From Pseudoalteromonas sp. MEBiC 03607 (GTDB taxonomy: Bacteria; Pseudomonadota; Gammaproteobacteria; Enterobacterales; Alteromonadaceae): a stretch of 64,000 bases of DNA. Position 1 is the stretch's first letter, and every line of letters begins with the position of its first letter. The notes beneath the pieces were generated by a model. It searched no databases and had not been told where the DNA came from. It saw only the letters and a list, made by a program, of their open reading frames with translations. The stretch covers positions 2,921,501-2,985,500 of the forward strand of contig NZ_SRRY01000001.1 of assembly GCF_004792295.1 (NCBI RefSeq), read 5' to 3'. Below are positions 34,905-37,224 of this stretch, piece by piece. Made by a program: the position numbers and the translations under genes.

Positions 34905-35513
34905 TTAACTAAATAAGCGTTCAAACCAGTTTTTATCTAGATCAGCTTCGCACTTTTTAAGTTGTGCGCCATACCGGCTAGCTCGGTGTTTTACTTTATT
35001 GGCAACACTCATCAACCACTTTTTACTTTTATAAGTACCGCGTTTATAGCCGCCCCACCCTTCATGGTAATTCAAGTACTGCGCGTAGGCGTCCCATTTT
35101 GATATTCCGTTTACTTTATGAGTTTTATAAACAAACCAAGCCATAAAGTCTATCGCATCATCAAAATCGTCTCTGTCTGCCCCACTATTCCCAGTTTCGC
35201 GAATGTAATCTGACCAAGTTGGCGTTTTTGCTTGCGAGTATCCATACGCTGAACTGGCTCGGCCAATAGGAATGACCCATAAGAAATATTCCATAGGTGG
35301 CGCTGCATCATGACGAAATGAGCTTTCTTGATACATCATACTCATGAGTACGTGTTTAGGTGAGCCCCACTTTTCTTGCGCATCACGCGCATCGTAGTAC
35401 CAGTCAGGCTTTTCCTCAAAAATCTTACAAATATCATGAGGTTGCTCTGGAGGAGCCGTTGCGCAACCCGCCATTAAAGCGGCCAGCGATAAAATAATTA
35501 AACTTTTTTTCAT
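34905..35513 (-). CDS. SLT-domain lipoprotein (putative lytic transglycosylase)
   Basis: A 202-residue lipoprotein. The lipobox LMAGC places lipidation at Cys17. The SLT-like fold begins near residue 55, with the candidate catalytic Glu63 in YQESSFRHDA, then SSAYGYSQAKTPTWSDY and LNYHEGWGGYKRG, elements typical of lytic transglycosylases that cleave peptidoglycan. Its specific substrate is unknown. It starts 18 bp from the -35 box of an oppositely oriented sRNA gene. In enterobacteria this position next to gshA is occupied by luxS, which is not present here. Confidence 0.82.
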   Translation of the reverse strand: MKKSLIILSLAALMAGCATAPPEQPHDICKIFEEKPDWYYDARDAQEKWGSPKHVLMSMMYQESSFRHDAAPPMEYFLWVIPIGRASSAYGYSQAKTPTWSDYIRETGNSGADRDDFDDAIDFMAWFVYKTHKVNGISKWDAYAQYLNYHEGWGGYKRGTYKSKKWLMSVANKVKHRASRYGAQLKKCEADLDKNWFERLFS

Positions 35514-35530
35514 TTTTTTATGTATCTCGC

Positions 35531-35558
35531 TGAACTTTTTCTCATCAGGTCAGTCTGA
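35531..35558 (+). promoter_or_regulatory. Sigma-E type promoter of the candidate sRNA
   Basis: TGAACTT at 35531-35537 and TCTGA at 35554-35558 are separated by 16 bp. This is close to the sigma-E consensus GGAACTT, 15-17 bp, TCTGA. It points rightward, away from the SLT lipoprotein gene, and no protein-coding gene lies in front of it. Confidence 0.75.
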
Positions 35559-35563
35559 ACTTA

Positions 35564-35635
35564 TGAATGCAGCAGTATAGCATTGTTTCATCCCTGAAGA
35601 ATCTTTGACGCAGCCTCCCTAGGCTGCGTTTTTTT
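35564..35635 (+). ncRNA. Candidate MicA-like sigma-E-dependent small RNA
   Basis: About 72 nt run from the expected start of a sigma-E promoter (six or so bases after TCTGA) to the U run of a strong terminator. It lies between gshA (same side and opposite strand as in E. coli) and an unrelated gene. The segment GCATTGTTTCATCCCTGAA at 35579-35597 closely resembles the E. coli MicA core as I recall it (GCAUUUGUUAUCAUCAUCCCUGAA), which is the part that pairs with ompA. Size (E. coli about 70 nt), promoter class, position and strand all agree. Exact ends are estimates. The mid-molecule hairpin of MicA looks weaker here. Targets are not in the window. Confidence 0.72.
35608..35635 (+). terminator. 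Terminator of the candidate sRNA
   Basis: ACGCAGCCT (35608-35616) pairs perfectly with AGGCTGCGT (35621-35629), followed by seven U on the plus strand. There is no A run on its left, so it does not work for the minus-strand gshA gene that ends at 35650. Confidence 0.9.
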
Positions 35636-35649
35636 ATGTACTCACCTTA

Positions 35650-37224
35650 CTAAGCTTTAGCAAAATAATCATCTAAAAACGCAGTAAAAGATAGCTTGTC
35701 AGCTGCTTTTACTTCTCGCTCTTTAAGCACTGAATCAGATGCCTGTTTAGTCAAAAATGCATGATCATAAAATTGATAATCAGCCTCGACATGGTTTTGC
35801 TTATATTTTTGCGCAAGTGTTAAGGCAAAAAGACCATTATCTTGATTTTCTTTTGCAAGTGCGCTGACATACCGACCAGAGAAAGTTTTATTAGGGTTTC
35901 TGACCCAACTTGCAAGCTCTGCGATTGTTTCGCTGTAATAGCTCACACCATATGCGTTATCCATATAGTTAGCCACAGCAGCTAGATTAGTAAATATAGA
36001 TTCAGCCCAGTCAACAAGCAGAACCTTTTCACCTTGCTTATTCAACGTAAGCTCAGGGGCTCGGCCTTCATTTACAACCGCATCAAGATTAGCTGTACTT
36101 AACTTTTGTTCCTGCCAATCCATTTCTGGAGACTCAGACAATAAACAATAGGTCAAAAATACGTCTAAAAAGCGAATTTGCTGTAAATCAATACCGGTTT
36201 CACTGAATGGGTTAACATCTAGCGCGCGTACTTCTATATACTCGATCCCACCTCGTAATAAGGCATCAGTAGGTGTTTCTCCTGAGGCAGCATTACGCTT
36301 AGGACGTATCGGTGAGTAAAATTCATTTTCAATTTGTAGAATATTTTTGTTCAGTTGTTTTGGCTGCTCACTACGGTAGTCATCAAGGTGGCCATATAGG
36401 TCTGATGGCGTATGAATCGCTTCTTTTAAACCTGCTACATATTCTTCTAATGAATTGTACATAACTCGTAAAGACGATTGTGCGCTATTAGTATAACCAA
36501 GGTTGCCTAATCGCAGTGCCGTACCGACTTCTAAATAAAGTGTGCCTTTACCTAGTTTCTTAAACGGTAAGTCTGTTTGACGACCCTGCAAGAAAGAATT
36601 ACACAACGCAGGCGAAGCGCCAAATAAGAAACTAATTAACCATAACTCGCGCTTAAAGTTGCGAATGAGCCCTAAGTAACCATTCGAAATTGAATCTGCA
36701 AGTGTGCCTTGGCTGCCGTTTAAACTATACAGGCTTTGCCATAAGCTTTCAGGAAAGGAAATATTGAAATGAACACCCGCAATCGCTTGCATCATACTAC
36801 CATAGCGATTTTTCAACCCTTCTCGGTAAAGAGTTTTCATACGGCCGATATTTGAATCACCAAACTGAGCTAGTACGATATCATCTTGGTGCTCAATAAA
36901 GCATGGCATACTAATCGGCCACAGGAGTTCGTCACCCATTTGAGATAAGGTGAACTTTTGTAAGTCTTTAAGTTGAGCTAGGGTTTCCTCGGCTGAGGTG
37001 CTCACTGGAGTAATAAATTCTAATAACGATTCTGAAAAGTCAGTGGTGACATGATCATTGGTTAAAGCGCTACCAACGCCTTGTGGATGACCTTGCCCTG
37101 AGATAACACCATTTGGTTTGATCCTTAATGCTTCTCGCTCGATACCACGTTTAATCCCATTAATTGCGTTAGGAAATTGTGCCGTTAACGCTTCTAGCGT
37201 TTTATTTAAATCATGTTTTATCAA
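35650..37224 (-). CDS. gshA: Glutamate-cysteine ligase
   Basis: A 524-residue enzyme (E. coli 518) joining glutamate and cysteine in the first step of glutathione synthesis. The proteobacterial GshA type is clear from GIERETLR-like text (GIKRGIEREALRI), the TDFSESLLEFITP segment, and YIEVRALDVNPFSETGI. It is monocistronic. A 393-bp divergent region separates it from the chemoreceptor gene. No dedicated terminator is seen between its stop and the sRNA terminator. Confidence 0.96.
   Translation of the reverse strand: MIKHDLNKTLEALTAQFPNAINGIKRGIEREALRIKPNGVISGQGHPQGVGSALTNDHVTTDFSESLLEFITPVSTSAEETLAQLKDLQKFTLSQMGDELLWPISMPCFIEHQDDIVLAQFGDSNIGRMKTLYREGLKNRYGSMMQAIAGVHFNISFPESLWQSLYSLNGSQGTLADSISNGYLGLIRNFKRELWLISFLFGASPALCNSFLQGRQTDLPFKKLGKGTLYLEVGTALRLGNLGYTNSAQSSLRVMYNSLEEYVAGLKEAIHTPSDLYGHLDDYRSEQPKQLNKNILQIENEFYSPIRPKRNAASGETPTDALLRGGIEYIEVRALDVNPFSETGIDLQQIRFLDVFLTYCLLSESPEMDWQEQKLSTANLDAVVNEGRAPELTLNKQGEKVLLVDWAESIFTNLAAVANYMDNAYGVSYYSETIAELASWVRNPNKTFSGRYVSALAKENQDNGLFALTLAQKYKQNHVEADYQFYDHAFLTKQASDSVLKEREVKAADKLSFTAFLDDYFAKA

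Follow-up and report, generated by a model that had tools for sequence, protein, structure and literature searches.

A predicted MicA-like small RNA gene with a sigma-E-type promoter beside gshA in Pseudoalteromonas sp. MEBiC 03607

The DNA analysed here, referred to as the window, is a stretch of 64,000 nucleotides from Pseudoalteromonas sp. MEBiC 03607. As read from its sequence, a gap of 136 bp (35514-35649) separates two minus-strand genes, one for an SLT-domain protein with a lipoprotein-like N-terminus (34905-35513; PF19489 SLT_4, 270 bits) and the other gshA, encoding glutamate-cysteine ligase (35650-37224; PF04262 Glu_cys_ligase, 525 bits). A plus-strand unit occupies this gap and points at the 3' end of gshA. 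It starts with a sigma-E-type promoter, which consists of the -35 element GAACTT (35532-35537), located 18 bp from the SLT start codon, and the -10 element TCTGA (35554-35558) at a spacing of 16, and it continues into a conserved predicted small RNA of about 71 nt (35565-35635), the start of which (G35565) was placed by alignment with E. coli micA and by analogy with E. coli MicA (TCTGA-N6-G). The core GCATTGTTTCATCCCTGAA (GCAUUGUUUCAUCCCUGAA in the RNA), the proposed mRNA-pairing region, lies at 35580-35598. The unit closes with an intrinsic terminator (35608-35635) made up of a 9-bp stem (35608-35616/35621-35629), a CCCU loop and a T-run ending at 35635, and we infer that the resulting U-tail is the expected landing site of Hfq. 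Only on the plus strand is the stem followed by a T-run, and the structure is therefore unlike a terminator of gshA itself. An earlier note on this DNA had described a sigma-E promoter (TGAACTT, 16 bp, TCTGA) and a terminator hairpin within the 136-bp gap, both of which are present, and also the core, which exists but had been placed one base off, at 35579-35597.

In E. coli the gene order is luxS(-), micA(+), gshA(-), the latter two being 8 bp apart, and the place and strand of the Pseudoalteromonas unit thus agree with those of micA, which bears out the MicA-like orientation proposed earlier. Further traits of MicA are found at this locus in addition to a gene position just beyond the 3' end of gshA and on the strand opposite to it, namely a sigma-E-type promoter sequence, a length of about 70 nt with an intrinsic terminator (from the sequence only), and the CAUCCCUGA core, which is recognized by the motif model described below and shares 11 identical nt with E. 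coli MicA. The promoter stretches align without gaps (E. coli CTGAACTCTTTCTTCCCAGGCGAGTCTGAGTATATGAAAG, Pseudoalteromonas CTGAACTTTTTCTCATCAGGTCAGTCTGAACTTATGAATG). A trait that is missing is luxS on the other side, where the SLT protein is encoded instead, and the E. coli RNA has a repeated ATC ahead of its core whereas the Pseudoalteromonas unit has none. The same genome carries hfq (103 bits) and rpoE (TIGR02939, 324 bits), and upstream of the latter is GAACTT-N17-TCAGA, with the same -35 hexamer as the sRNA promoter.

The unit was evaluated with a position-weight model that covers both promoter boxes together with the core and for which 18 loci from other species served as the training set. 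Its score of 40.2 is the highest on both strands of 464 kb of its own genome (the window and 20 stretches of 20 kb), in which two other sites pass 20 (24.7 and 20.3). The segment 35565-35636 folds at -21 kcal/mol (z -3.1), with three of 200 shuffles as good. The lowest-energy fold, unlike the centroid fold, presents UCCC in the loop of a small hairpin (UUUCA-UCCC-UGAAG). Over 25 sequences, this CCC-in-small-loop feature has a summed stem score of 220 versus a shuffled mean of 111, which none of 1000 shuffles matched, most of the single sequences, E. coli included, being unremarkable.

Compared with 16 other sequences of the genus, identity to the window is 100% in the -35 box, 42% in the spacer and 84% in the -10 box; along the transcript it is 80% in the 5' part, 97% in the core, 60% in the linker, 83-84% in the stems, 34% in the loop and 100% in the T-run; and in the flanks it is 71% upstream and 33% in the one that follows. 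Boxes, core and stem are thus kept and spacer, linker, loop and following flank are free, which is the profile of a trans-acting sRNA, the core being the most conserved transcribed part ahead of the T-run. Five stem pairs of the terminator are maintained through two-sided changes among 24 aligned Alteromonadales sequences, giving a covariation score of 0.522 that none of 500 shuffles reached. BLAST located the unit in seven of the eight same-genus genomes, its own included, of a 196-genome family sample. In one genome (G147), two full copies of the unit were observed 14 kb apart (L295, G147:C34:246000-265500).

Beyond the genus, units antisense and 3' of gshA are also found in loci of Rheinheimera, Alkalimonas, Arsukibacterium, Alteromonas, Idiomarina and Aliidiomarina, and the core variants among gshA-linked units include TTCATCCCTGAA, TTCATCCCTGGA, TCTCCCTGGA, TTTCCCTGGA and TTCATCCCCTGAA. 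This survey drew on 80 named gshA loci, 64 of which were analysed and 36 taken as candidates (34 with a pattern-recognized core); 32 of the candidates gave transcripts, and alignment A1 holds 24 transcripts, from the window and 23 loci. In addition, gshA flanks were fetched for 80 of the 107 genomes of the order with gshA, and three of these 80 repeat named records (L136/L072, L138/L078 and L199/L109). The earlier note had made its claim depend on conservation in related genomes, and on this sequence half of its test promoter, core and terminator are retained there at the same place and strand.

The motif model was then applied to 127 gshA 3' regions outside its training set (E. coli, the 80 fetched regions in 22 family codes, and 46 named ones), covering 300 nt past gshA, so that copies may exist elsewhere. 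With a cut-off of 20 that was chosen after the scores were known, 28 of the 127 regions score at least 20 antisense to gshA, in each case with none of 100 shuffles as high, and on the other strand no region does so (0/127; maximum 17.1). Those reaching the cut-off are E. coli micA, six of seven f1 regions, three of seven from f131, which are of Enterobacteriaceae type by their luxS and micA, three of five from f133, and 15 of the 46 named regions, most of these from training genera. E. coli micA itself scores 30.5 bits (0/100 shuffles) although the training was done without enterobacteria. Several known or likely micA or micA-like regions fall under 20 (L060, L061, L068, L146, L147, L175 and L176), and L188 (19.5) and L166 (18.6) are near misses that have no CCC core. 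The gap comparison that had been suggested for Pseudoalteromonas, Shewanella and Vibrio covered the first two genera, no locus bearing the name Vibrio being among those surveyed. It came out differently for the two, as all ten named Pseudoalteromonas gshA loci carry the unit and none of 23 Shewanella gshA regions (19 named and four of genus code g170, two of them repeats) reaches 20 within 300 nt. No region of f122, f124 or f134 reaches 20, and the unit is also absent from two near relatives, a Rheinheimera-labelled MAG (L091) and Pseudidiomarina (L056).

Other arrangements were observed in the same survey. The f133 loci L178-L180 have a gshA-linked unit with GCATTGTTCATC and TTTTCCCCTGGG as two separated motifs, bridge-like between core types. 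Promoter-terminator units of f115 and f125 that are devoid of a CCC core were not counted as carriers: in L128, L129 and L130 (f115), two tandem units with GCAAGAGTTGTTTTTTCATTTT lie between gshA and luxS and are either a diverged relative or another sRNA, and in L154, L155 and L156 (f125), a GAACTCTTT-type promoter and a terminator with GAATTGTTTTTTTCATTG and no CCC occupy the gshA-SLT gap, luxS also being present. At L290 (G148:C2:178000-182000), six visible head-to-tail units with a period of about 113 bp and one N stretch between them are located beside gshA, each with a sigma-E-like promoter, an TTTCCCTTGAA core and a terminator, together with two further, different units.

A covariance model of the transcript (R1) was run on the 196 family genomes, in which gshA was also located, and the placement check took the 72 matches with E <= 9e-4 from a longer list. 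Of these 72 best matches, 41 are on the opposite strand just past gshA, at 429-1680 bases beyond the end of its Pfam match (which stops about 400-450 bases short of the gene end), 20 are elsewhere, and for 11 the place of gshA was not listed. All 31 placed matches below E 1e-5 adjoin gshA, training genera included, and the placement result is partly circular, since some of the genomes and training loci come from identical records. The second G147 copy is among the 11 unplaced matches and, being 14 kb from the first, does not lie beside gshA if the first does. In the E. coli locus R1 has a single match, at micA, which is weak (16.2 bits, E 0.13 in 248 kb). Given that R1 is partly driven by the terminator, with several of its 43 locus matches beginning past the core (e.g., L128, L129 and L150), and that 20 of its 61 placed genome matches are away from gshA, many of those examined belonging to another multicopy sRNA-like family, we place more weight on the motif test of promoter and core. 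Members of that other family (L292, L293 in G087, L294 in G178, and L296 in G139) carry GTTAACTTTTCATAGTTTTCCTCCCTGAAATG or a near form with a terminator, and a repeated upstream box, TTTTACATTTGGTTAACGG or near, without a sigma-E box, in copies about 0.3-7 kb apart.

Rfam gave no match on the whole window at the gathering threshold and, at E 10 on 201 bases of the gap, 18 weak matches, none to MicA. The search with the MicA model RF00078 (gathering score 41 bits) that had been proposed in the earlier note thus went against it, finding nothing even at E 10 on the 201 bases and nothing in the whole of its own genome. Weak matches occur in 47 of 114 genomes of the class, none above the cut-off. 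Applied to 20 loci, RF00078 matched three of the four enterobacterial ones and none of the 16 others, with Morganella (63.7 and 63.6 bits) and Budvicia (42.7 bits) as positive controls. Owing to this non-match, the unit is called MicA-like or a probable orthologue here, and not a member of RF00078. Compared with E. coli MicA alone, the similarity of the transcript body is weak, 128 of 5000 shuffles aligning as well. Two other candidates were rejected, suhB/mmgR (RF00519) with 27.1 bits in the 201-base search against a gathering score of 41, and Hrs13 (RF02631), which has UUCAUCCCUG in common with the unit, with 21.0 bits against 52.

Among described small RNAs, VrrA of Vibrio cholerae, likened here by its description, shares sigma-E control and repression of ompA by pairing with its 5' region, but is 140 nt long. 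CT_532 of Bordetella pertussis, which has been called a MicA homologue, is likewise a short Hfq-dependent RNA with predicted ompA pairing, but in the text available the authors report no RpoE dependence and no ompA-binding MicA sequence. Rna01 of Actinobacillus pleuropneumoniae, as its paper describes it, has a putative GAACTT-16-TCTTA promoter, Hfq involvement and outer-membrane effects, but sits between sbcB and eriC and is 86 nt long. The primary transcriptome of Alteromonas macleodii is reported to include 127 chromosomal sRNAs (PMC5864184). The main texts of the papers on Bordetella CT_532, Actinobacillus Rna01, Alteromonas Te101 and P. fuliginea do not mention gshA, and no title or abstract start returned by searches of the open-access literature describes this RNA.

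By all sequence tests except the Rfam MicA model, the unit is a conserved sigma-E-type sRNA gene, and its MicA-like reading is supported by them. We contend, with a probability of roughly 0.78, that the element is a small RNA of the Hfq type, dependent on sigma-E and acting in trans, and, judging by its position, probably an orthologue of MicA. Alternatively, an independent sigma-E sRNA may have arisen in the same gshA gap, its resemblance to MicA being due to convergence. One sigma-E promoter resembles another, and CCC cores occur often since they bind Shine-Dalgarno sites; a CCTCCCTGAA core and a terminator are also shared by the other, unlinked sRNA-like family, which belongs to the same GTDB family, and such an origin would also fit the RF00078 non-match and the modest similarity of the body to E. 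coli MicA. We nevertheless regard convergence as unlikely, because strand and gene end are equal and spacing and core are similar across several families, and because the motif model trained without enterobacteria finds E. coli micA, where the covariance model also has its one match, weak as it is.

Gene order bears on the same question. Within 1400 bases, gshA-SLT-luxS is found in 16 of the 80 fetched loci (four of f122, five of f124, three of f125 and four of f134); SLT without luxS occurs in most f1 loci and others, and luxS without SLT in f131, f115, f118, f123, f139 and one f134 locus. The earlier note was correct in that the partner of the Pseudoalteromonas unit is SLT and not luxS, but luxS need not have been replaced: given those 16 loci, the E. 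coli arrangement gshA-micA-luxS may be the same order minus SLT, which can link both arrangements and speaks against convergence. The simplest reading, drawn without a tree, would be that gshA-SLT-luxS is old, with the sRNA gene directly following the 3' end of gshA, and that luxS came to lie beside micA in Enterobacteriaceae once SLT had been lost. In favor of convergence, a CCC-type unit, SLT and luxS were never seen together in any locus examined, and for this reason the ancestral order gshA-micA-SLT-luxS is only inferred; f125 has unit, SLT and luxS only if its diverged promoter-terminator unit is counted.

The orthologue reading also gains from the likely target, as ompA would be a further likeness to MicA besides the TCATCCCTGAA core and the terminator. 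Two OmpA homologues, L226 and L225, are encoded in tandem in the same genome, and the leader of L225, GGAAGGGAAUGAAAC-AUG, is complementary to GUUUCA-UCCCU. GGGA occurs at -20 to -5 in 29 of 30 ompA leaders of the genus versus 25 of 361 background leaders of the genome, a motif picked after the leaders were viewed and in leaders that are mutually related; moreover, these are the best-scoring 30 of 40 genus genomes with OmpA, so that the test leans to nearer relatives. With 150 background leaders as the reference, the core pairs with 13 representative ompA leaders at a mean z of -2.05, a strength attained by no shuffled core out of 400. The background starts behind the 25 of 361 were picked by a rule favoring usual ribosome sites; with two other start rules the background GGGA counts are 21/360 and 25/358, and shuffled cores are as strong in 0/200 and 1/200 cases. 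In its own genome alone, each of the two ompA leaders ranks 19th of 361 by core duplex energy, with unrelated genes higher, and for the whole RNA body against the L225 leader 25 of 300 shuffles are as strong. In genera other than Pseudoalteromonas, the sites in ompA leaders are of the ordinary AGGAG or AGGA type, between 10 and 250 of 300 shuffles are as strong as the pairing of a genus's own sRNA and ompA, and matched pairs are best in three of six rows and three of six columns of the cross-genus comparison, which is only a hint. Within the genus, ompA as a target is supported by computation. The pairing region of E. coli MicA with ompA is presumably the GCGCAUUUGUUAUC part. The ompA-leader search proposed in the earlier note did detect complementarity in the genus, but the pairing predicted for Pseudoalteromonas uses the CAUCCC part and likely proceeds via UUUCAUCCC.

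A 17-base complement search of the same genome yielded 21 matches, one of them the sRNA itself, versus eight for the reversed control, and of the matches near starts some are ahead of exported-protein genes (L212, L217 and L211) and some are not. The sites at L212 (C1:2032941) and L217 (C2:10689) are three mismatches from the core complement and 33-35 nt upstream of genes, whose N-termini we would guess to be porin-like and TonB-receptor-like, making them possible further targets.

The likely mode of action is that envelope stress would free sigma-E, which would transcribe the RNA, that Hfq would hold it by its U-tail, and that its core would pair at the ribosome-binding site of ompA, and perhaps at those of some further mRNAs for outer-membrane proteins. 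Such pairing would block ribosome entry and promote mRNA decay, leaving fewer outer-membrane proteins while the envelope recovers. The unit might instead act in cis, the neighbors, and not distant mRNAs, being regulated by transcription that runs toward gshA or is antisense to the SLT leader, a reading that draws on its position between two opposite-strand genes, on the closeness of the -35 box to the SLT start codon and on an effect of E. coli MicA on luxS transcripts, which is among the matters discussed in a review (PMC4618604). This seems improbable, since, up to the T-run, no transcribed part is better conserved than the core, the neighbor on one side varies (SLT or luxS) while the unit stays, and one genome holds a second copy 14 kb away. 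That a short leaderless peptide (MQQYSIVSSLKNL) read from the transcript start is the product is very hard to credit, for although the window has its 13 codons as an open frame, as do many of the 16 relatives with related frames, L003, L032, L038 and L039 have lost or altered it and its ends vary widely; moreover, DNA-level identity in the core is 97%, and the ATG follows 2 nt after the inferred start, which leaves no space for a ribosome site.

In its available text, a review from 2015 confines MicA to Enterobacteriaceae, with Lactobacillus showing a partial match as the exception, and asks whether this range reflects the gut (PMC4618604). Judged by the comparisons above, the Pseudoalteromonas unit is most likely a MicA orthologue, older than this described range. 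On a broader reading, to which we give somewhat better than even odds, MicA would be a sigma-E sRNA of ancient origin, belonging to the entire GTDB order that includes Enterobacteriaceae, Alteromonadaceae and relatives, with gshA-micA-SLT-luxS as the ancestral order, from which SLT would have been lost in Enterobacteriaceae and micA in Shewanella and others. The gene would have been amplified in some lineages, such as G148 with its six units, and a constant CCC anti-ribosome-site would be held in a small hairpin loop, with the flanks drifting to fit the ompA of each lineage. If orthologues exist in marine bacteria, the sigma-E/MicA/ompA circuit would be older and not tied to the gut. This would also provide a broad natural alignment, comprising an sRNA together with its target, for following the drift of pairing regions, and the unit could be exploited as a ready sigma-E reporter for marine Gammaproteobacteria.
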